From Opitutales bacterium (GTDB lineage Bacteria; Verrucomicrobiota; Verrucomicrobiia; Opitutales; Opitutaceae), in NCBI GenBank assembly GCA_018700525.1, contig JABITN010000054.1:1-32681 (forward strand): a DNA stretch of 32,681 bases, given 5' to 3'. The translations under genes were made by a program, and so were the position numbers. The notes beneath the pieces are model-generated. The model saw nothing but the letters and a program-made list of their open reading frames with translations, ran no database searches and had not been told where the DNA came from. Position 1 is the first letter of the stretch, and each line of letters opens with the position of its first letter. This document shows, one piece after another, positions 1,064 through 26,435 of this stretch.

Positions 1064-2581
1064 CTAAGTATTACGATAAAGGCTTCTTCGATCGGCCCAA
1101 TGGGCTTTCAACAAGCATCCCCAGTACCAAGCAACGATCGCTAGCGACAAAAAGTGCGAGTCAACCATTAAGCTCCATACTGAATCGGAAAGTTTGAAGA
1201 CTTGATCCGCATACCCAATAACTCTTAAAGACGGGTAGTCATTGAAGAAACTCGCGTACAAGCTCATCAATATATAAACAGATCCCAAACACAGTGTTGC
1301 CACTATTGCCAATAAAATCGACGCCACAGAATTCCGTATCCACAAAATAGGTGCCAACAGAAGCGCATGGATGCATATAGACAACAGAATTCCGGATCGA
1401 AAAACAATCCAAGGAGTACATATCCAGCCCCAATAAACTTCCAATAAAGCGAATAAGAAAAAAGTTATAGCATACAATCTAACATTAAATGGAACACGTA
1501 ATCCGGCAATGACAAATGCAGTTCCCGATGCCGCCAGGATCCAAAAAATAACGCTGATCATCGAAATGTATATAAGATACAAACCTGCCAAAGCAATGGA
1601 AACCCGCAATACCCGCCGCACGAGCAATTTCTCTAGGCGGACCGCATTCCCCCATGCCCACGAAAGCAATCCGAAAGTCAGTAACAGAGTGCCGAAATAC
1701 ACCCAAGACGGCACCGCAAGGATTGTCCTGTAATCGCTCAAATCTTCGCTATTGTCATACCACTTTACTCCGTCCCATACAAACCCATGTCGCATCTGGG
1801 ATCTCCCATATTCGTCAAGTCGAACCTTCGCTACTAAAAGTCGATAGTCTCCTCCTAAATGTGCAGCTGAACCAAGTTCTCGCCTCTCCTCCTCTTTTCG
1901 CGTTCTGTCGGGCAGCGAAATTACTTCCATAGAAGCCGCGTAATCGAATTCGCGATCATTCGCATTGCGAACAGCGATAACCGCCGGATAGAAACAATCG
2001 AACCCGATTGGAGCAATCAGCGGGATAGGAGCAATTAAGGTTCGATAACGCTCGGGCGACACGATATTACGAAGGACCATACTCGGTAACTCTATTTCAG
2101 GAAATTTTATATCATACCAATATTCACCTTCTTGGACATAGTTAAATTGGATGAGAATGCTCTCTCGGTCAGAGCCAATACCCATTTCTTCAAACGCGTA
2201 AACCTTATCAAACGCGATTCGCCATTCACCGGAATCCGTATTTTCGAACGCTACGCGCGGCAGGTTTCGAACGAGTAACTCGCCATCTAAACCATAACAC
2301 TGCATCGCCAACCTAGCCCCGCTTTCCAACTCTTGACTGGTTAAATAGCTGACTCGAAACCGGATCCTTTTATTCTCTCGATCAATCTCGACTTCGCCCT
2401 CCAGCGAAACGGAGTCTCCCTCATGACGAAATGAAGCTCCGAGCACTAAATCGCTTAATCGATAATACTCATCGAGGATTTGAAATGGCTTACTCGGCGC
2501 TCGATGCGGGTTCTTATTTCTCCCACAAGAACAAGCAAAAACGGCCACAATCGCCAATAATACGCAACGGACAAACATCAT
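1064..2581 (-). CDS. Lipoprotein-like multi-spanning membrane protein, partner of LtaS-like enzyme
   Basis: 505 residues from the ATG at 2581. This start is chosen because GGAGG lies 7 bases upstream and the ATG overlaps the TGA of the preceding gene (ATGA). An earlier TTG at 2611 is less likely. The N-terminus is a signal sequence ending in VFAC/ACSC (residues 14-19), so it is probably a lipoprotein. Residues about 20-285 are a soluble, beta-rich-looking domain I do not recognise. Residues about 290-492 hold six to eight hydrophobic helices. The last loop and helix (about 445-492, with FFNDYPSL and ADQ...SDS) resemble the end of the membrane part of LtaS-family proteins. Inference: this protein supplies the membrane domain missing from the catalytic protein encoded just upstream. 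The exact function is unknown. Confidence 0.75.
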   Translation of the reverse strand: MMFVRCVLLAIVAVFACSCGRNKNPHRAPSKPFQILDEYYRLSDLVLGASFRHEGDSVSLEGEVEIDRENKRIRFRVSYLTSQELESGARLAMQCYGLDGELLVRNLPRVAFENTDSGEWRIAFDKVYAFEEMGIGSDRESILIQFNYVQEGEYWYDIKFPEIELPSMVLRNIVSPERYRTLIAPIPLIAPIGFDCFYPAVIAVRNANDREFDYAASMEVISLPDRTRKEEERRELGSAAHLGGDYRLLVAKVRLDEYGRSQMRHGFVWDGVKWYDNSEDLSDYRTILAVPSWVYFGTLLLTFGLLSWAWGNAVRLEKLLVRRVLRVSIALAGLYLIYISMISVIFWILAASGTAFVIAGLRVPFNVRLYAITFFLFALLEVYWGWICTPWIVFRSGILLSICIHALLLAPILWIRNSVASILLAIVATLCLGSVYILMSLYASFFNDYPSLRVIGYADQVFKLSDSVWSLMVDSHFLSLAIVAWYWGCLLKAHWADRRSLYRNT

Positions 2582-3900
2582 CGAACATCCTCCAAGTAAT
2601 CCGGTCGCCATATTGCCAGCTTGGATAGAATACCTACATCGATTCGTGTATTCTCGCTTATCGGTTCTCCATTCTCGATCCGCATTTGCAAAGAGGCAGG
2701 CGTTATCGATTCGCCAATCGAATCGATCGAGTTTCCGACAAATGTACTTGGAGGCTGAATACCCAGACTATGCAAAATCATTACTGGTAAATCCTGCAAG
2801 CTGCTCAATCTCTCTATTCGCTGATTACCTTTGTCCAGTCCCGTTACGACCAAAGGGACAGTATCCAAAAAAGGCGGATTCTCTATATCTAGCAAATGCA
2901 TCAATCGGTCAGCAATCCCACTGTCATGATCGCTGAATACTGCGACAATGGTGTTCTCCATCTCTCCAGAAGCTATTAACGAATCATAGAAACGTCCTAT
3001 CTGAGTATCTACATAGCGCAACGATACTAAAAAATCTTCTTCGATACTCGATTTACGGTCTCCCGAAATATCGCCTATATGATTATATGGATGGTGATGC
3101 GTTAACAGAATAATATGCCCGAACACTGGTTGCTCGATCCTAAGAATTGTTTCTAACGCGACCTCCAAGACAACTTCGTCCGACACTCCCCAACCAATTT
3201 TTTCGGGGGATTCGAAATCAGACAAAAAGAAGTCTCGGTCAAACCCCAGCGATCGGTGGGCATCGGAGCGATTCCAAAACTCGCCGTTAAACCCATGCAT
3301 CGAAAAGGAATAATAGCCATTGTCTTTCAATACTCGCGGCAGGGAAGGAATCTTGTTCAGATCGAAATTAACGAAAACGGGGTCGCCCTTGATCGGTGGT
3401 ACCGATGTTAGAACCATAAACTCAGCATCCGATGTTCGTCCCGCATCTGTAGCATCGTAGGTATTTGCAAACGAGACGTTCTCATCAGCAATTCGCCTTA
3501 AATTCGGCATGATCGATTCTCCCTCATGAACGCCATACAAACAAATTCCGTCAACCGATTCCATCTGGATGAAAACAACGTTCTTCTTGCGTGCCGGCTC
3601 TAGGTGGAAATCACCTCGATCGCTTCTGCGCTTCTCTAAGAAACTTCGATACGGATCCGGATCTAATTTATCGATCCGAGCTTTTTCAAAAGCGGAAAGT
3701 GCAATCTTCTGAAGATCGTATACAGCATATCCGATAATCCCCAATTGCCTCGCCAGGTATCGGTTTTCATGACGGCCGGCAATCGATACCCAATCGCGTG
3801 ATACGAGGCAGACGCAGATCACCGAACAACAAATCCCTAACCACGCAAAAACGAGCCTTCTATATCTATTTAAATTCAACTGACGATATTTCATGCTCAA
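2578..3900 (-). CDS. LtaS-type phosphoglycerol transferase (sulfatase-fold) with one membrane anchor
   Basis: 440 residues. A single hydrophobic helix (about 16-34) precedes an extracytoplasmic catalytic domain (about 105-400) of the LTA-synthase branch of the alkaline phosphatase superfamily. Residues matching the known LtaS active site are visible: metal-binding E114 in QMES, nucleophile T156 in GRTSDAEF, W209/R211 in MHGFNGEFWNR, H268-270 in THHHPY, and D324/H325 in FSDHDSG. These enzymes transfer phosphoglycerol from phosphatidylglycerol to envelope acceptors; the acceptor here is unknown. Typical LtaS proteins have five N-terminal helices, whereas this one has only the last. AGGA lies 8 bases before a TTG at 3900; an ATG two codons later (3894) is the alternative start. 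The gene overlaps the downstream membrane-protein gene by ATGA and lies 79 bases after yidD. Confidence 0.88.
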   Translation of the reverse strand: MSMKYRQLNLNRYRRLVFAWLGICCSVICVCLVSRDWVSIAGRHENRYLARQLGIIGYAVYDLQKIALSAFEKARIDKLDPDPYRSFLEKRRSDRGDFHLEPARKKNVVFIQMESVDGICLYGVHEGESIMPNLRRIADENVSFANTYDATDAGRTSDAEFMVLTSVPPIKGDPVFVNFDLNKIPSLPRVLKDNGYYSFSMHGFNGEFWNRSDAHRSLGFDRDFFLSDFESPEKIGWGVSDEVVLEVALETILRIEQPVFGHIILLTHHHPYNHIGDISGDRKSSIEEDFLVSLRYVDTQIGRFYDSLIASGEMENTIVAVFSDHDSGIADRLMHLLDIENPPFLDTVPLVVTGLDKGNQRIERLSSLQDLPVMILHSLGIQPPSTFVGNSIDSIGESITPASLQMRIENGEPISENTRIDVGILSKLAIWRPDYLEDVR

Positions 3901-3979: not shown

Positions 3980-4264
3980 TTACCGATGCGAATCTTCCGC
4001 TTCTCTACCCGGAACCGGATCGTAACCAGATCCACCCCACGGGTGACAACTGAGTATTCTTTTTACTGAATAATAAATAGCCTTACCAAGCGATAGAGTT
4101 TGGAAGCATTCAATCGAATAACTCGAGCAAGTCGGACGATAGCGACAGCCGGAATTCGGTCCGAACAACGCGTACTTCATCGGTGAAAGAACCAACTGAT
4201 AAAAGCGGATCAATTTTATCGCGACCCACGCGACAGCCTTCCGAATCCACCTCAGCCCCTTCAT
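3980..4264 (-). CDS. yidD: Membrane protein insertion efficiency factor YidD
   Basis: 94 residues from the ATG at 4264, which overlaps the TGA of the preceding deaminase gene (ATGA). The family pattern is clear: an amphipathic N-terminal helix, then [21 protein letters not shown], a middle helix and [13 protein letters not shown] near the C-terminus. YidD acts at the inner face of the cytoplasmic membrane and helps YidC/Sec insert membrane proteins. Its usual neighbours are rnpA and yidC, and neither is seen here. In this genome it sits between a riboflavin deaminase and an LtaS-like gene, so it is probably cotranscribed with both. An upstream in-frame start at 4303 would extend into the deaminase gene and is not favoured. 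Confidence 0.93.
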
Positions 4265-4710
4265 GTCTCGCGGCCCGCGAACCCTGGATTTATGGCTTCG
4301 CACTCCGAAACCAAAACGTTCGGATCAACTGAAACTCCAGCCTCCTGAAGCGCTACCAAACCAGCTCCGCGGTGAACCGACGTAGGATCGAGAGCCCCGA
4401 CAACCACTTTCGAAATTCCCGATTCGACGATAGCCTGAGAACACGCCCCCGTTCGTCCATGAGTCGAACACGGCTCAAGCGTGACGTACAATGTTGCCCC
4501 CCGCAAAGGGGCTCGGCCCAAATCCGCCAGAGCCACGCGCTCCGCGTGCGGGCCGCCATCCGACTCGAAAAAACCGCGCCCCACAATGACTCCCGATTCG
4601 ACGATTACCGACCCGACACGAGGGTTCGGGCTCGTCTTCGCGACGTCGCCCTTAAGCGCCTCGGAGATAGCCTCTCTCATAAACCATTCGTGTTTCGTCT
4701 GCTTCTTCAT
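4261..4710 (-). CDS. ribD: Deaminase-only RibD (riboflavin biosynthesis)
   Basis: 149 residues from the ATG at 4710. It matches the N-terminal deaminase domain of Rib[13 protein letters not shown] (26-37), zinc ligand H55 with catalytic E57 (HAE), and EPC-x8-C (C81 and C90) in [12 protein letters not shown]. The reaction is hydrolytic deamination of the diaminohydroxy pyrimidine intermediate in flavin synthesis. Normal bacterial RibD is about 360 residues with a C-terminal reductase domain. Here the protein ends right after the domain-end pattern (EAINPGF), and the next gene overlaps the stop codon. It therefore looks like a genuine single-domain form rather than a frameshifted one. The longer frame up to 5004 runs across the divergent nitroreductase gene and is rejected. 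No FMN riboswitch was recognised upstream. Confidence 0.85.
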
Positions 4711-20307: not shown

Positions 20308-21927
20308 ATGTTAGACCCCCTGCCACAAGAGTCCTGGTCCCGCCGCGCAGCCATCCATCTCCTCAATCGAGCTGGCTTCGGCGGATCGCCCGATGAGCAA
20401 GAAGCACTCTTTCGCCTCGGCGAAGAATCAGGTATTGAAGCCGCCGTCGACTCGTTGCTCGAAACCAGTGAAGACTGGTCTAGTCAACCTTGGCCGGATT
20501 GGGCACTTCGTGACAAAGATCCCAACGGCGACTTCTACGATCCAGACGGCAATACGGAAGCCGCCAACAGCAATTCCAATTTCCGTAATCAAGGCATTCG
20601 TCGACGCGAATTCACTCGCTGGTATTTTGCATCTCTCAAGGAAGGCCAACCGCTCGCAGCCAAACTTCTGAAATTCTTCACCGATCACTTCGCGATCGAT
20701 TCCGCCGCCATCGGACAGTACTATAGATTCATTGGTCTCCTCCGCTATTTCGAAATACTGCGAAAACACGCCGCTGGAAATGTCGCGGGGCAAGACGCGC
20801 CATTCGAAGGCGACGAAAGGCTGGTCCCCGATGGACATTATGGGAATTTTCGAACAATGGTTAACCACGTTTCCTGGTCGATCGCGATGGTACGCACGCT
20901 CGATTTGTACGTGAGCACAAACAGAAGCATCAACGAAAATTTTGGCCGGGAGTTATTGGAGCTTTTCACACTTGGAGTTGGCGATACATTCACGAACGAC
21001 AACGACGATTACACGGAAGAGGATGTGGGCACCGCTGCCGAAGCCTTTACCGGTAGAAAAATCTACAATTATCGTTACCCCAACAATACGAATAATGGCC
21101 CATACCCAGCTGCCGTTTGGCAAAACAATGGTCTAAGAGACAAATCAGCCAAATCGTTCTTCGGCAACGAAGCAATGCCGGGAGGAGCCGACATCGTCGA
21201 CGGCGACGATATTATCGAACTCATTTTTAACAGCACGCGCTGTGCAAAACACCTTAGCTGGAAACTCTGGCGCTACTTCGCCTCTCCGAATCCATCCAAG
21301 GAATTAGTCGCCGCCCTCGCTCTGCGTTTTCGTGACACGCACGACTACGAGATTCGCCCTTTCTTGAAAGATATCTTCCTCAGTCAAGAGTTCTACGATG
21401 ACTCAGCCATCAATTCTCAAGTCAAAGATGCTGGCGATATTCTGACCATTCTGGAAAAGCAGCTCGAAGCTCCTTTGGTCTCTAAAGATGCAATCGAAGA
21501 CGTCATGCAACAGCTCGGCTATGAAATCCTTTTCCCTCCCAGCATAGCAGGCTGGCCAGAGCCCGATGGCGATGGCAACACCTGGCTCGCAACGGGATCG
21601 ATGGTATTTCGCATGAATATGCCAAGCATATGGAGTCACCGCAATTTCGACGTTCTCACCAACAATCGTGTTCGCAACAGTCTAGACGAATATCCGGAAG
21701 TCGATTGGAATAGCATCGCGCCTCGAGAACTCCGAACCATAGAGAACTTTCCCCTGCTAATTGACGCCCTGACGAAACGTTTTCTACCCAACAAAACACT
21801 CCGCAAGAGTCAGATTCGAACGCTCTATCAACGTTATTCCGCCATATCCGAGCAGCTCGACTCTTTGGAAGGCGTAAAGGAATTAATACGACTTCTGCTC
21901 GCATTGCCCGAGTACCAACTTCAATAG
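20308..21927 (+). CDS. DUF1800 domain protein
   Basis: 539 residues. Recognisable blocks of the DUF1800 family are RRAAIHLLNRAGFGGSP near the N-terminus, KLLKFFTDHFAI, MVNHVSWSIAMVRTLDLY, NENFGRELLELFTLGVGD with EEDVGTAAEAFTGRKIYNY, and the C-terminal FPPSIAGWP. No biochemical activity is established for this family; it is found next to DUF1501 proteins in Planctomycetota, Verrucomicrobiota and others. There is no obvious signal peptide, so export, if any, would rely on the partner or on a different route. It is 18 bases upstream of the DUF1501 start on the same strand. Start at ATG 20308 lacks a Shine-Dalgarno site. Confidence 0.88.
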   Translation: MLDPLPQESWSRRAAIHLLNRAGFGGSPDEQEALFRLGEESGIEAAVDSLLETSEDWSSQPWPDWALRDKDPNGDFYDPDGNTEAANSNSNFRNQGIRRREFTRWYFASLKEGQPLAAKLLKFFTDHFAIDSAAIGQYYRFIGLLRYFEILRKHAAGNVAGQDAPFEGDERLVPDGHYGNFRTMVNHVSWSIAMVRTLDLYVSTNRSINENFGRELLELFTLGVGDTFTNDNDDYTEEDVGTAAEAFTGRKIYNYRYPNNTNNGPYPAAVWQNNGLRDKSAKSFFGNEAMPGGADIVDGDDIIELIFNSTRCAKHLSWKLWRYFASPNPSKELVAALALRFRDTHDYEIRPFLKDIFLSQEFYDDSAINSQVKDAGDILTILEKQLEAPLVSKDAIEDVMQQLGYEILFPPSIAGWPEPDGDGNTWLATGSMVFRMNMPSIWSHRNFDVLTNNRVRNSLDEYPEVDWNSIAPRELRTIENFPLLIDALTKRFLPNKTLRKSQIRTLYQRYSAISEQLDSLEGVKELIRLLLALPEYQLQ

Positions 21928-21945
21928 CCCGCAACAAAACCGAAA

Positions 21946-23325
21946 GTGGATATAAACAGTAAATTAAACCGAAGAGATTTCGTTGCCAAATCCGCATGGG
22001 GGGCCACCGCTTCGCTAACCCTACCGGGATTCCTCCAGCAAACCCTTTTCAACCTCGATGCCAGGGCCCAGTCAGTTCCTTCCAACGGAGGTGACGGACC
22101 GATTCTGCTCCTTCTAGAGATGGCCGGCGGTAATGATACGCTTAATACAGTCATACCCTACGGAAACAGCATATACAATACAGCGCGATCTTCACTTCGC
22201 CTAAATGAGACTCACGGTTTCCATAAACTTACCGATAAAAATGGTCCTAGTGTTACCGGCAACGACGAAGCCTTGGCATTGCATCCAAATCTTACTTACT
22301 TCGACACGCTTTGGAAAGACGGTGACCTCGGGATCATCAATGGAGTTGGATACCCAAATCCAAACTTATCCCACTTTAGTTCCTACGACTACTGGCACTC
22401 AGCCAAACCCAATACGATGTCAAAGGACGGATGGATCGGGAGATATTTCGACAATCAATGCGACGGTTGCGGCTCCACAAGCGGTATCTATATTAACGGT
22501 CGTCCGACACTCGCTTTCAGAAGTTCCAATGGTCTCAGCCCCACAGCGACGTTCAAAAATCCAGGCTACTTCAATTGGCGGGATAAGTCGGAAACCGGGC
22601 GCGAACAACCTCTGGACAAAATGTATCGCAAACTGATCGGTCTCGATCATCCGACTGACGACGGCATCAGCACTACGGACACAACCCTTGCCTACGTACA
22701 GCGAGCTGCCCACAGTGCAATGGTCAGCACCGCAAACGTACAAGCCGCAATTGAGGAAGGCGGCACGCTCCTGACAAATTCGGAATGGCCCACCGGCAAT
22801 GGCCTTGCCAACAACTTGAAAGTCATCGCTCAACTGATCAAAGGTAAGAGCGACACCTCTATCTACTACGCCCGCCAAGGTGGTTACGACACGCACAACA
22901 ACCAAGTAGACGTAAACCTCGGACCTTTGGCTGGCCGTCACTTCAATTTACTCGATGATCTCAACGGAGGCCTCAAGGCCTTCATCGACGAGATGAAAGC
23001 CCAAGGAATTTGGGACCGCGTCGTCATTCTCACCTTTAGTGAATTTGGCCGAAAAGTCATCCAAAACGGAAGTAGCGGAACCGACCATGGAGCCGCGGAA
23101 TCGCTCTTCGTCATGGGTGGGCAAGTCAATGGAAACAATTACTACGGTTTGTATCCAGATTTAGCAGCGGATGCCCGCGTCAAGCGGAACAGTATGGACT
23201 TCAATGTAGACTTCAGAACCGTCTACAGGACCTTGTTAGAAAAGTGGATGGGCGTCCCCCCATCTGCCATGCCGAACATCTTCCCGTCGCAACCCGTCAA
23301 CTTCGATCCACTTGCATTCCTCTAA
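21946..23325 (+). CDS. DUF1501 protein with twin-arginine signal
   Basis: 459 residues from a GTG at 21946. N-terminus MDINSKLNRRDFVAKS is a Tat-type signal (RRDF) followed by a moderately hydrophobic stretch and a likely cleavage after DARAQ. DUF1501 motifs are LLLEMAGGNDTLNTVIPY, LSHFSSYDYWHSA, YDTHNNQVD, and LTFSEFGRKV followed by GTDHGAAESLFVMGG. The fold is related to the alkaline phosphatase/sulfatase superfamily, with its D-H-rich metal-site residues visible, but the substrate is unknown. Sits between the DUF1800 gene (18 bases) and the cytochrome c/Ig gene (5 bases), so it is likely cotranscribed with both. Export in folded form through Tat suggests a metal or cofactor. Confidence 0.9.
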   Translation: MDINSKLNRRDFVAKSAWGATASLTLPGFLQQTLFNLDARAQSVPSNGGDGPILLLLEMAGGNDTLNTVIPYGNSIYNTARSSLRLNETHGFHKLTDKNGPSVTGNDEALALHPNLTYFDTLWKDGDLGIINGVGYPNPNLSHFSSYDYWHSAKPNTMSKDGWIGRYFDNQCDGCGSTSGIYINGRPTLAFRSSNGLSPTATFKNPGYFNWRDKSETGREQPLDKMYRKLIGLDHPTDDGISTTDTTLAYVQRAAHSAMVSTANVQAAIEEGGTLLTNSEWPTGNGLANNLKVIAQLIKGKSDTSIYYARQGGYDTHNNQVDVNLGPLAGRHFNLLDDLNGGLKAFIDEMKAQGIWDRVVILTFSEFGRKVIQNGSSGTDHGAAESLFVMGGQVNGNNYYGLYPDLAADARVKRNSMDFNVDFRTVYRTLLEKWMGVPPSAMPNIFPSQPVNFDPLAFL

Positions 23326-23330
23326 GGACT

Positions 23331-26300
23331 ATGAAGACGATCCAAACAATTCTATCTTTCGCCGCAGTAGGGCTTCTTTCAAGCAGCTCTTTTGCGAATA
23401 CATTCACACTCGTTTCGCTATCTGGAGACACGGCAGACACGAATCCGGAGCAGACATACGAGTCATTCAGCCTGCCTGAAATCAACGAATCAGGACAGGT
23501 TGCATTTGGAGCCCGCTTTGAGAACCCTGAGCTCAACCAAGCATTCCAAAACGATCTGCTCCCTCTTTTTGCTGAGAGTTGCTACAAATGTCATGGCGAC
23601 GGAGGCCCTCGGTTGAACAATATCGACCTAAGGCCCATTCTCACAGCCCAAGATCTCCTCGCTCGTCCTAATGGCCTCACGGCCATCCGGAATCGGATCA
23701 ACAACAATAGTATGCCCCCCAATTCCGAGCCGTCGCTCGATCCGGAAACCAAGGCTCAAGCGGTCGCCACTCTCAACCTTCTCATCGAAGTGGCCAACCA
23801 GAGCAATACGCACTTGGACGCAGCGCTGCAATTCGACAACGGACAGCTGATCACCCTAGCCGCGAAAGGCGAAACGGCGACCGTTAACGGCCAAGCAGGC
23901 GAGATAGAAAGCATTCGCTCCGTATCTGCAACCGAGAGCAACAACGTGGCGTTAATCGCTACCCTGGCTGAATCGCATCCACTCGATGGAATAGACCTCC
24001 TCCTTTCTGCCAACGCAAATTCTCAAGAGCTTCAACTACACACGCATGAGTCTACCGCGCCGCTCATCGATTTCAGCGGAACGCGCGACAACAGTCGCCG
24101 TCACCAAATTCTGGGCACTCCTCAAAGTGTTCCCGCGAATGCCTTTTCTTTCTGGTCTCGTCTACGAACCGGTCAAACTCCCGACGAATCAGGTCTATGG
24201 ATCGTCGATCTAGATTCCATATCCGCTCCATTGAATGGACAGCGCCTCGTCGCAATCGGAGGATCCACCGCAAATGGCGGTGCCCTTACCCTCGAAGCGC
24301 CTGTTGCCAGTTCGTTCAATGCAACCCTTGCGGGGGCATTTACCGCAAGCTTGGAAGACGGCGACGAGAACAGCTTCAATAACGATATTGCGATTTGGAG
24401 TGTCGATTCCAGCAGCAATGCGACCTTGATTGCTAAAACCGGCGATACGGCGCCAGATTCGTCCGACACCTTTCTCTCGTTCGGCAAACCGGCAGTTGAC
24501 AGCGACGGAGACGTTTATTTCTGGTCGAATTTACTTACCGAAAACGAAGCGGAAGGTCTCTACCAGTTTTCCGACGGCAGCCTTGCAACGCTTGCATCGA
24601 CTACTCAAGCAATCGATGTTTTCGGAACTCCTAGAACCTATTCCGAATTCCTTGATCCTGTTGTAAATGGAGCCGGAGACCTCGCTGTACTCGCTACGGA
24701 AGCTCTCGGAGACCTACAGACAATCCTTCATCGTGACAGCTCTGGAGTTTGGTCGATCGTCGCCCAAACCGACATGCAAGCGCCAGGCGCTCAGAGTGGC
24801 GTAACATTCAACATTCTTAGCTCTCCTCACCTCAATGGCAACGGACAAGTGGCTTTCCAAGCTTCTCTCTCAGGATCTGGAGATTCCATCTCCGATACCA
24901 CGGACACAGGTGCTTGGGCGACGGATTCGAACGGATTCTTAGCCCTTGTCGCGCGTGCAGGAGACACCATCGAGGTTCGGCCAAGTTTCCCAGCGACGAT
25001 CAAATCGGCCACGATTAGCGGTTTCAATACCGCAAATCAAATCGCTCTGAATTATTCGTTCACAAACGGAGCCAGCGCCATTGCTATCGTCGGCCTCGCG
25101 GATATCCTGCCTCCAAGCATCGCCGAACAACCGGCAAGCGAAACTTCTTACGATGGCGAAACAGTTATTCTGTCAGTCGAAGCAGAGGGACAAGGGCCAT
25201 TCGAATACCAATGGAAAAAAGACGGTATCGACCTCGAAGGAGCAACGAACTCTGCCTACACAATCGACAACGCTTCATCCGACAATGATGGAGACTATAC
25301 AGTTGTGGTTTCGTCAACCTCCGGTTCGGTCACCAGCGCTGTTGCTGCTCTTTCAATAGAATTTCTGCCTTCCGCTCCGGTTTTCGTAGACCACCCATTA
25401 GGAGACATTGCCCTGCTCGGTACTCAAGCATTCCTAGACACGCGAGCAGTCTCGACATCAGCCGTCTCTTACCAGTGGTTTTTCGAGGGTAATGCCTTGC
25501 CCGGAGAAACCAACGACACTCTAACGATCAACCCAGCAAGAGCGGAAAACGAAGGCACTTACCATGTTGTTGCGACAAGTGCGGGCGGCACCGCCACAAG
25601 CGCCGAATCAGAGGTTCTTGTTACCGACAAACGGCTTATTAACGTCGCAGCCCGTTCCCGGGTTGGTTCAGGAGCCAACGTTCTAATTGCTGGGTTTGTC
25701 GTAATCGGACCAGAACCTAAGCAGATATTGATCCGAGGACTGGGTCCTGGGCTTCCCGAGGGACTTGACCGACTCTCAAATCCAAGACTCGAAATTTACA
25801 ATAGTTCTGGCGAGATGATACACTTCAATAATAGCTGGGGCGAAAATGAAAACCCTGGCGCTATCACTCAAGCCTCTCTCGAAACGGGAGCAGGAGGAGG
25901 AAAGCCTCTAGAACCTGGCGATACCGCTTTGCTAGTCGAACTTGAGCAAGGCCTTTATACCGCGATCGTCCGCAGCGAAGACGATACAAGCGGAATTGCT
26001 CTTGTCGAAGCATTCGAAGTTGGAGAAAACCTCACTCGATTGGTTAATGTATCGTCCCGCGCCTTCGTTGGCGTTGGCGACGAAGTCGTAATTCCTGGCT
26101 TCATCGTACAAGGCGATCTTCCTACCCGCGTTCTCATCCGAGCCATTGGACCGGGCCTCATTAAGCAAGATGTAGCTGGCGTTCTCGAATTTCCTGAAAT
26201 CACTGTCTATGACTTCTTCGGAGAGGTAATAGCTCAAAACGACGGATGGGGAAACCTGTGGAACCCAGAGACTATCAATGAAGCCAGTGCCTTGGTGGGA

Positions 26301-26435
26301 GCCCAACCAATCGATGAAGGAAGCGAAGACGCCGCGCTGATCCTCGATCTCGAACCTGGTCTTTACACTGTGAAAGTGAGCGGCGAGAATCAAACTTCAG
26401 GCGTCGCTCTTGTCGAAGTATTCGCGATTCCATAA
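23331..26435 (+). CDS. Secreted cytochrome c motif, Ig-like and tandem C-terminal module protein
   Basis: 1034 residues from ATG 23331, five bases after the DUF1501 stop. Residues 1-23 are a Sec signal peptide. A repeat-rich domain follows, with blocks such as INESGQVAFGA, VDSDGDVYFWS, VNGAGDLAVLA and LNGNGQVAFQA. Inserted into the first block is a cytochrome c-like segment: CYKCH heme motif (C84, C87, H88) and SMPP (M128) as likely second axial ligand. Two Ig-like domains lie at about 595-680 and 683-765. Two related C-terminal modules follow, 767-900 and 903-1034, each starting (R)L(I/V)NV...R..VG.G and containing (G)FxV/xGPGL. Inference: an exported electron-carrying or redox-sensing partner of DUF1800/DUF1501. 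No sorting signal was recognised at the C-terminus. Confidence 0.85.
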   Translation: MKTIQTILSFAAVGLLSSSSFANTFTLVSLSGDTADTNPEQTYESFSLPEINESGQVAFGARFENPELNQAFQNDLLPLFAESCYKCHGDGGPRLNNIDLRPILTAQDLLARPNGLTAIRNRINNNSMPPNSEPSLDPETKAQAVATLNLLIEVANQSNTHLDAALQFDNGQLITLAAKGETATVNGQAGEIESIRSVSATESNNVALIATLAESHPLDGIDLLLSANANSQELQLHTHESTAPLIDFSGTRDNSRRHQILGTPQSVPANAFSFWSRLRTGQTPDESGLWIVDLDSISAPLNGQRLVAIGGSTANGGALTLEAPVASSFNATLAGAFTASLEDGDENSFNNDIAIWSVDSSSNATLIAKTGDTAPDSSDTFLSFGKPAVDSDGDVYFWSNLLTENEAEGLYQFSDGSLATLASTTQAIDVFGTPRTYSEFLDPVVNGAGDLAVLATEALGDLQTILHRDSSGVWSIVAQTDMQAPGAQSGVTFNILSSPHLNGNGQVAFQASLSGSGDSISDTTDTGAWATDSNGFLALVARAGDTIEVRPSFPATIKSATISGFNTANQIALNYSFTNGASAIAIVGLADILPPSIAEQPASETSYDGETVILSVEAEGQGPFEYQWKKDGIDLEGATNSAYTIDNASSDNDGDYTVVVSSTSGSVTSAVAALSIEFLPSAPVFVDHPLGDIALLGTQAFLDTRAVSTSAVSYQWFFEGNALPGETNDTLTINPARAENEGTYHVVATSAGGTATSAESEVLVTDKRLINVAARSRVGSGANVLIAGFVVIGPEPKQILIRGLGPGLPEGLDRLSNPRLEIYNSSGEMIHFNNSWGENENPGAITQASLETGAGGGKPLEPGDTALLVELEQGLYTAIVRSEDDTSGIALVEAFEVGENLTRLVNVSSRAFVGVGDEVVIPGFIVQGDLPTRVLIRAIGPGLIKQDVAGVLEFPEITVYDFFGEVIAQNDGWGNLWNPETINEASALVGAQPIDEGSEDAALILDLEPGLYTVKVSGENQTSGVALVEVFAIP

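Follow-up and report, generated by a model that had tools for sequence, protein, structure and literature searches.

The present analysis concerns two overlapping genes on the minus strand of a 32,681-nucleotide stretch of DNA from an Opitutales bacterium of the family Opitutaceae (contig JABITN010000054.1, assembly GCA_018700525.1), the whole of which is referred to here as the window. Gene 1 (2578..3900, minus) encodes P0001, a protein of 440 residues plus stop that was assigned as an LtaS-type catalytic protein from its open reading frame and its matches in Pfam, NCBIfam, and the PDB, and gene 2 (1064..2581, minus) encodes P0002, a putative membrane partner of 505 residues plus stop, for which the open reading frame, a structural model, and a 17-member alignment are available. 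The stop codon of gene 1 and the start codon of gene 2 overlap in ATGA (2578..2581, minus), and the ribosome-binding-like motif GGAGG (2589..2593, minus) lies within gene 1, 7 bases before the start of gene 2. Both frames, the overlap, and the GGAGG motif were seen in the sequence as described in a first-pass annotation of this DNA, the proposal of which, namely that the pair represents an LtaS enzyme split over two proteins, was largely supported by the results described below. P0001 starts at a TTG codon, with an ATG two codons further on, and no membrane helices are expected to be hidden ahead of gene 1 because the distance from its start to yidD (3980-4303) is only 79 bases.

Catalytic domain encoded by gene 1

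P0001 matched the Pfam family Sulfatase (E = 1.5e-32) and the NCBIfam profile of Gram-positive LtaS (4.4e-44), the latter at profile positions 148-471 with the match beginning at residue 17 of the protein. Its score of 151.1 bits is below the cut-off of 970 that is curated for the Gram-positive LtaS profile (NF053595), and it also fell below the curated cut-offs for OpgB/MdoB (28.6 vs. 574 bits and 58.3 vs. 572 bits, NF003000 and NF009027) and for YejM/PbgA (26.2 vs. 825 bits, NF038282). The closest solved relatives by sequence were the LtaS-type chains of Bacillus subtilis, Listeria monocytogenes, and Staphylococcus aureus, PDB entry 2w8d being matched at 3.2e-33, and a profile-profile alignment of the gene 1 family with LtaS reached a probability of 100 from residues 30-393 to LtaS residues 177-557. 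When the AlphaFold2 model of P0001 was compared with known structures, the similarity score Z was 39.4 for LtaP, 37.3-38.2 for LtaS, and 34.9 for a Vibrio protein, while sulfatases, GacH, and YejM scored approximately 26.

Regarding the active site, the residues of LtaS are given in the available text of one report as His253, Glu255, Thr300, Trp354, Arg356, Asp475, and His476 (PMC7576196). In our alignment, the last six correspond to E114, T156, W209, R211, D324, and H325 of P0001, and the position of His253 is occupied by Q112, at a site that also varies among the LtaS sequences used. By alignment to 11 LtaS sequences, E114 (codon at 3559..3561, minus) is a putative metal ligand, T156 (3433..3435, minus) is the putative nucleophile, and D324-H325 (2926..2931, minus) belong to the putative metal site. 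Conservation was high among the 16 rows of gene 1: Q112, E114, H269, D324, and H325 were present in 16/16 and W209 and R211 in 15/16 each, and position 156 was Thr in 15 and Ser in one. The catalytic features of LtaS, i.e. a Sulfatase-type domain, the Glu, the nucleophilic Thr, the Trp/Arg pair, the His, and the Asp-His pair, were all present, and the LtaS-type catalytic domain that had been noted in the 440-residue protein was confirmed; however, from the earlier listed triplet H268-270, only H269 aligned with a histidine of LtaS, that of its N-H-F motif.

The second glycerol-phosphate site of LtaS is absent from P0001, which reads DHDSxI where LtaS has DHYGIS..H; the residues of this site (Ser486, Asn488, and His489) are those reported in the available text of PMC4192460 for Listeria LtaS, the sequence of which is itself outside the alignment. 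Lys306 of Listeria LtaS is also replaced, by Arg155. Both differences argue against polymerization, and, because the second site is missing, we predict a transferase or primase rather than a polymerase.

Hydropathy indicated one membrane segment in P0001 (residues 16-34), and the model (pLDDT, predicted local distance difference test, 87.1) contained a helix at residues 10-33 (3802..3873, minus) followed by linker helices, in agreement with the single membrane helix annotated previously. The model, the LtaS profile match, and hhalign place this helix at the position of the fifth helix of LtaS, and residues 30-83 behind it aligned with LtaS 177-231 (probability 82.9). In LtaS, five helices precede the catalytic domain in the same polypeptide; in P0001, there is one.

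Membrane part of gene 2 and its likeness to LtaS

The AlphaFold2 model of P0002 (mean pLDDT 85.7, predicted template modelling score 0.69) showed a signal helix at residues 2-20, beta strands at approximately 34-290, and seven helices at residues 292-313, 319-341, 345-360, 365-388, 391-408, 418-446, and 474-504, an odd number that agrees with an outside N terminus and an inside C terminus. The exterior part (residues 34-290; 1712..2482, minus) is assigned to beta-sandwich domains from the model and structure searches, and its strands may be read as two sandwiches; it corresponds to the exterior domain of 265 residues that had been proposed as an addition to LtaS, with approximately 260 residues in the model. 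The first three membrane helices (residues 292-360; 1502..1708, minus) showed no counterpart in LtaS, since the LtaS profile matches stop short of them, and the last four (residues 365-504; 1070..1489, minus) appear to be the counterpart of LtaS helices 1-4, helices 5-7 of gene 2 being placed by profile. The membrane block had been described as six to eight helices ending in a loop and helix; seven were predicted within residues 292-504, and the loop helix before the last one was seen at low confidence, the loop between the last two helices, which holds D448, being the weakest part of the model (pLDDT 51-68 by block of ten).

The signal peptide (residues 1-20; 2522..2581, minus), which was identified from the model helix and conservation, carries a lipoprotein-type cysteine, C19. 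The previous description of the protein as lipoprotein-like holds for the genus, in which C19 was invariant (5/5 copies), but not for the family, in which this column was Cys in only 6/17 members; therefore, lipidation is not a family feature of gene 2. The possibility of gene 2 acting as a free lipoprotein was set aside because the cysteine was not kept in most members outside the genus. The most conserved exterior stretch is located at residues 145-170 (2072-2149, minus), around QFNYVQEGEYWYDIKFPEIELP, with F146, E151, W155, P161, and P166 invariant in 17/17 members, and is a candidate for a ligand or partner surface.

Structure searches with the whole P0002 model returned, among the best 50 rows of each, mostly immunoglobulin-like (Ig-like) and other beta-sandwich folds, and the 17-member profile of gene 2 searched against the PDB retrieved only two designed chains (E = 0.13 and 0.85). 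A Pfam scan of the 17 members at E up to 10 yielded eleven families, each in 1/17, with a best value of 0.00055 for a domain of unknown function (DUF). A seven-helix receptor of the 7TMR-DISM type, which was suggested by the outline of the protein, was not among the Pfam matches of the 17 members at this threshold, and this argues weakly against it.

The 18,950 models of NCBIfam gave a different result when the 17 gene 2 members were scanned one by one at E up to 10; the individual matches were read from 16 of these members and the fragment L057, the window's own protein being scanned separately. LtaS was matched in 10/17, with E-values of 2.4e-5, 1.2e-4, 4.9e-4, 6.2e-4, 0.034, 0.035, 0.069, 0.13, 0.44, and 2.5, and ten other families were each matched by 1/17. 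These LtaS matches covered profile positions 28-135 and lay in the C-terminal third of the gene 2 proteins, at positions 376-487; four of the ten are significant singly, and the others add to the evidence only by falling on the same stretch.

A profile-profile comparison by hhalign of gene 2 family residues 283-505 with residues 1-165 of an LtaS alignment, composed of 11 members (ten Bacilli from plasmid records and one Verrucomicrobiota genome), gave a probability of 95.1 and a score of 56, with the core of the match at residues 397-481 of P0002 (1139..1393, minus), corresponding to residues 57-136 of the LtaS sequence L061. Since hhalign E-values are pairwise, we put weight on shuffles and controls: reversed profiles scored 14.6 and 15.6, the exterior part of gene 2 scored 8.5 against LtaS, and 200 shuffles of the LtaS columns within blocks of 15 reached a maximum of 29.0 (mean 13.5). 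All 11 single LtaS sequences aligned to the same stretch of gene 2 with scores of 16.3-48.8. For comparison, 24 control frames with at least five hydrophobic segments showed a median of 14.05 and a maximum of 25.9 (L076, on another stretch); these controls are single open frames, some of which may not be genes, and are comparable to single LtaS sequences and not to the LtaS profile. A further ten membrane enzymes belonging to the superfamily (L069, L070, L095, and L101-L107) reached 0.1-1.5% against gene 2, among which L069 is no fair control because it begins inside the stretch that gene 2 matches.

These comparisons bear on the view that the product of gene 1 is simply another transferase in the alkaline phosphatase superfamily, with gene 2 encoding an unrelated seven-helix membrane protein as an operon neighbour, the likeness of which to LtaS helices 2-4 is coincidental. 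Although the window's own P0002 had no database match, six of the ten LtaS-profile matches had E above 0.03, and the single-sequence scores of 3/11 LtaS overlapped with the controls, we regard coincidence as very improbable considering that shuffled or reversed profiles scored at most 29 versus 56, that LtaS was singled out among 18,950 families in 10/17 members on one stretch, and that the superfamily enzymes that could serve as controls hardly responded.

At the level of individual residues, most LtaS sequences read YYRFFxDFxTxPxLxQTxNxxxLGGS where gene 2 reads YxxFFxDYPSLxxLxYAxQVxxLxDS, with equal spacing from the Asp to the Leu. D448, in the loop motif FFNDY (codon at 1238..1240, minus), aligned with the loop Asp of LtaS and was present in 17/17 members, as was F446, and Tyr or Phe followed the Asp in 16/17. 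On the basis of this motif, D448 may be equated with Asp-101 of Listeria LtaS, the sequence of which is outside the set. The fourth helix of gene 2 would correspond to LtaS helix 1, as we infer from the order of the helices and the global alignment. A membrane part homologous to LtaS helices 1-4 was found in the same operon as the catalytic domain, with LtaS helix 1 placed by order only. Profile comparisons demonstrate that the two genes are homologous to complementary parts of LtaS, and the earlier suggestion of a cut between LtaS helices 4 and 5 is borne out by the positions of the two matches on the LtaS profile (28-135 for gene 2 and 148-471 for gene 1), as is the swapped order of the halves, the membrane part being encoded downstream of the catalytic part.

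Distribution and conservation of the gene pair

A search with P0002 alone matched 5/95 genomes, and a search with a five-row gene 2 alignment matched 18/252 genomes of the family in 5/49 genera. The 21 rows obtained represent 19 copies, because gene 2 of G096 lies in two frames, two contig-end pieces in G101 were taken as one, and two copies are present in G113. A search for gene 1 with a 16-row alignment, at E up to 1e-25 and with no more than six candidates per genome being scored, identified it in the same 18/252 family genomes and in G047, the 535-residue frame of which (E = 1e-40) is more distant and looks like an ordinary one-piece enzyme. In the phylum sample, gene 1 was found in 12/374 genomes, i.e. 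G000, G047, G095, and nine more distant ones. Gene 2 was found in 5/372 genomes of the order sample, all within the family, and in 3/387 of the phylum sample, two within the family and one spurious (L076), with no more than three or four candidates per genome being scored; by eye, L076 resembles a potassium transporter. Plasmid records searched for gene 2 gave no match, and genome contigs scanned with two peptide patterns yielded four loci, all in genus members already found. Within the genus, 5/11 genomes had both genes and 6/11 had neither at the thresholds used.

Gene 1, or pieces of it, was located next upstream of gene 2 on the same strand in 19/19 copies. Most of the 19 junctions permit a one-codon stop/start overlap: 15 read ATGA or GTGA, one reads TAATG, one has its stop and start two bases apart, and two were unscorable with a disturbed gene 1; the starts at these junctions are unmapped, and L045, one of the 15, has a second possible start just after. 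Genes of this group were not commonly found alone, both occurring in the same 18 family genomes; the joint conservation that was to be checked in other Verrucomicrobiota was seen in the constant adjacency of the pair, but in one family only. Since the pairing, the overlap, and the profile matches recur across five genera, the pair is more than a chance arrangement.

In a phylogenetic tree, a single branch (78/99) separated the 16 gene 1 proteins from ten Bacilli LtaS, as was the case in 100% of 200 bootstrap trees, a separation that is compatible with a single origin of the split; the tree has 37 rows, 11 of which are ungrouped and possibly inside the two groups, 11 open forks, and long branches for L102, L069, and L095. 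Distances within the gene 1 and gene 2 families correlated (r = 0.88, 15 pairs), and the mean identity over 15 pairs was 26% for gene 2 vs. 42% for gene 1.

This difference in conservation is relevant to the view that gene 2, although descended from an LtaS membrane domain, serves as a regulator or chaperone without completing the enzyme, such that gene 1 functions by itself with its one helix and gene 2 senses or scaffolds another target at the envelope. The lower identity of gene 2 and its large extra parts are consistent with such a role, as is the hydrolytic activity that isolated catalytic domains of LtaS and EptA were reported to retain in the available text of PMC7576196. On the other hand, the part present in gene 2 is missing from gene 1, no genome yielded one gene of this group without its partner at these thresholds, and the loop Asp was kept in 17/17 members; we consider the regulator role to be unlikely.

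Four of the 19 gene 1 copies were interrupted or changed, namely L017/L012 (G001), L010 (G003), L055 (G096), and L049 (G113:C288), with damage in the form of two in-frame stops, frame breaks, or the loss of the Trp/Arg pair together with a disturbed end. Gene 2 was open beside three of them, and both genes were in two frames in G096; either assembly errors or decay may explain these copies. Of the two pair copies in G113, L050 has normal substrate residues, and L049, with W209 changed to Gly and R211 to Cys, appears as if it had changed in role or decayed.

Among the phosphoglycerol transferases of diderms, OpgB (MdoB) is the best known, and the pair might be considered to modify periplasmic glucans in the manner of this enterobacterial enzyme. 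Nine of the 18 pair-bearing genomes were among those with an MdoG match; six of the 18 (G096-G101) were outside the listed matches, having either no match or not having been drawn. MdoG was, however, matched in 162/245 genomes of the family, most of which do not have the pair, and MdoG was not matched in three pair-bearing genomes, namely G001, G003, and that of the window (96.5% complete), MdoG being only a proxy for OpgB-type glucan activity. Considering also that the OpgB-like proteins L070 and L107 (labelled by eye) are unlike P0002, a role in glucan modification seems quite improbable, more so than that of a regulator.

A putative two-subunit transferase and its relation to known systems

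Taken together, the two genes probably encode an inner-membrane phosphoglycerol transferase of the LtaS type that is split into two subunits. The split is well supported by sequence comparison as a genomic and evolutionary fact, and a working two-subunit enzyme is likely. LtaS helix 5 and the catalytic domain, which faces outward, would come from gene 1. Gene 2 would contribute the equivalent of LtaS helices 1-4, including the loop Asp, together with three extra helices and the outside beta-sandwich domains, and both proteins would assemble in the membrane as an LtaS-like unit. T156 would accept glycerol phosphate from phosphatidylglycerol, and D448 and the exterior domains of gene 2 may help to bind and activate the acceptor. 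The predicted reaction is a single-unit transfer, or priming, onto an envelope acceptor rather than the synthesis of a long polyglycerol-phosphate. The more specific view that the catalytic subunit is assisted in trans by D448, as the membrane-borne residue activating the acceptor, and by an exterior domain that binds the acceptor, and that the enzyme decorates an envelope component with glycerol phosphate in diderm bacteria such as the Opitutaceae, is offered tentatively, with slightly less than even confidence.

Several observations weigh against a split enzyme. The contact between the subunits and the enzymatic activity are predictions from sequence. Searches with P0002 alone came back empty for Pfam and NCBIfam (E up to 1) and for the PDB (E up to 10), and 7/17 gene 2 members had no LtaS-profile match even at E 10. 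There was no LtaS, PbgA, or EptA row in the best 50 rows of the whole-model structure searches, lists that are filled by beta-sandwich rows and leave room for an LtaS-like membrane match. Three of the 11 single LtaS sequences (L066, 16.3; L068, 22.7; L099, 23.8) scored below the control maximum of 25.9, so that it is the family profile that separates LtaS from the controls. The loop Asp is missing in 2/11 LtaS (L067 and L099), the Asp residues of LtaS helix 4 were not seen in P0002 in the alignment, and the D448 loop is the least confident part of the P0002 model. The correlation between the distances of the two families is expected from common descent alone, and the disturbance of 4/19 gene 1 copies implies that the system may be dispensable.

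The membrane domain is required for synthesis by LtaS according to the available texts of two reports (PMC4192460; PMC7576196). The former, published in 2014, described that full-length LtaS was needed and that domain swaps were non-functional, left the role of the membrane domain open, and proposed an Asp in extracellular loop 2 as the general base that activates the acceptor, with its confirmation left to later work (PMC4192460, available text). No later test of this proposal was found in the titles and abstract starts of the open-licence literature on LtaS. If the proposal holds, the base in the gene pair would be supplied by the other polypeptide. Because the catalytic domain and the loop Asp reside on different genes, each may be expressed, omitted, or altered independently, and this natural split offers a way to ask what the membrane part of LtaS does. 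In S. aureus, a signal peptidase cut that separates the catalytic domain of LtaS from its membrane helices was reported to be inactivating (PMC11898559, available text), although another group suggested that the two cleaved parts may remain together (PMC10865820, available text); that cut falls after the membrane helices, whereas the division in the gene pair falls before helix 5.

Regarding LtaS of type I lipoteichoic acid (LTA) synthesis in S. aureus, B. subtilis, and L. monocytogenes, the pair shares its catalytic fold, the metal and nucleophile residues, the substrate-site Trp/Arg and His, the linker that follows helix 5 (gene 1 RYLARQLGIIGYAVYD against LtaS SYIVKYLGMYNYVIYD), and the membrane loop FFxD(F/Y) followed by L-x-x-S at equal spacing in gene 2. 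In contrast, LtaS is one polypeptide, and the pair is two with the membrane part encoded downstream, three extra helices, exterior beta-sandwiches, no second glycerol-phosphate site, Arg155 for Lys, and Gln112 for His253 of S. aureus. The L. monocytogenes primase LtaP was tied with LtaS in structural comparison (Z 39.4 and 38.2, a difference of about 1), and, in the available text of PMC4192460, it is also described as not having the second glycerol-phosphate site, like gene 1; LtaP is, however, one polypeptide and does not have the loop Asp-Phe according to the same text (PMC4192460), whereas gene 2 keeps the Asp in 17/17 members.

YejM/PbgA and OpgB are, similarly, diderm membrane enzymes of the superfamily of gene 1, and the PbgA chain 6v8q aligned with gene 1 from residue 9 (Z 24.8), but both are farther from gene 1 than LtaS by Z and profile score, and the membrane domains of the OpgB-like L070 and L107 had no match to P0002. 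The cellulose phosphoethanolamine transferase BcsG of Escherichia coli is also a membrane transferase of this superfamily that acts with other membrane subunits, including BcsF; in the available text of PMC11470070, BcsF is described as recruiting BcsE without contacting BcsG directly, so there is no divided membrane domain in that system.

In the titles and abstract starts of the open-licence literature on LtaS, on split membrane enzymes, and on Opitutaceae with teichoic acids, we found no report of a split LtaS and none of a glycerol-phosphate modification in this bacterial family. If true, a two-subunit LtaS-type transferase would mean that the helix bundle of the superfamily can assemble from two chains, and it would point to glycerol-phosphate modification in this Gram-negative family.

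Two related sequences were observed besides the pair. L069, from a Bacteroides finegoldii plasmid, is annotated as an LTA synthase of 475 residues and lies beside a WecB/TagA glycosyltransferase; it starts inside the apparent loop before helix 4 and may be truncated or start upstream. L099 (G852), from another family of Verrucomicrobiota, is a one-piece LtaS-like protein with five hydrophobic segments and is one of the LtaS sequences without the loop Asp.

Upstream of gene 1 in the window are yidD, a deaminase gene taken for ribD, and then nitroreductase and sufE genes, as assigned by Pfam; these neighbours appear to have housekeeping roles and offer no clue to the acceptor. Downstream of the pair, a frame of 114 residues (201-545) had no Pfam match at E up to 0.01. 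Farther along the window, at 20308-26435, DUF1800 and DUF1501 genes are followed by a frame of 1063 residues that contains Ig-like domains and a DUF7453 stretch and matches a cytochrome family weakly.

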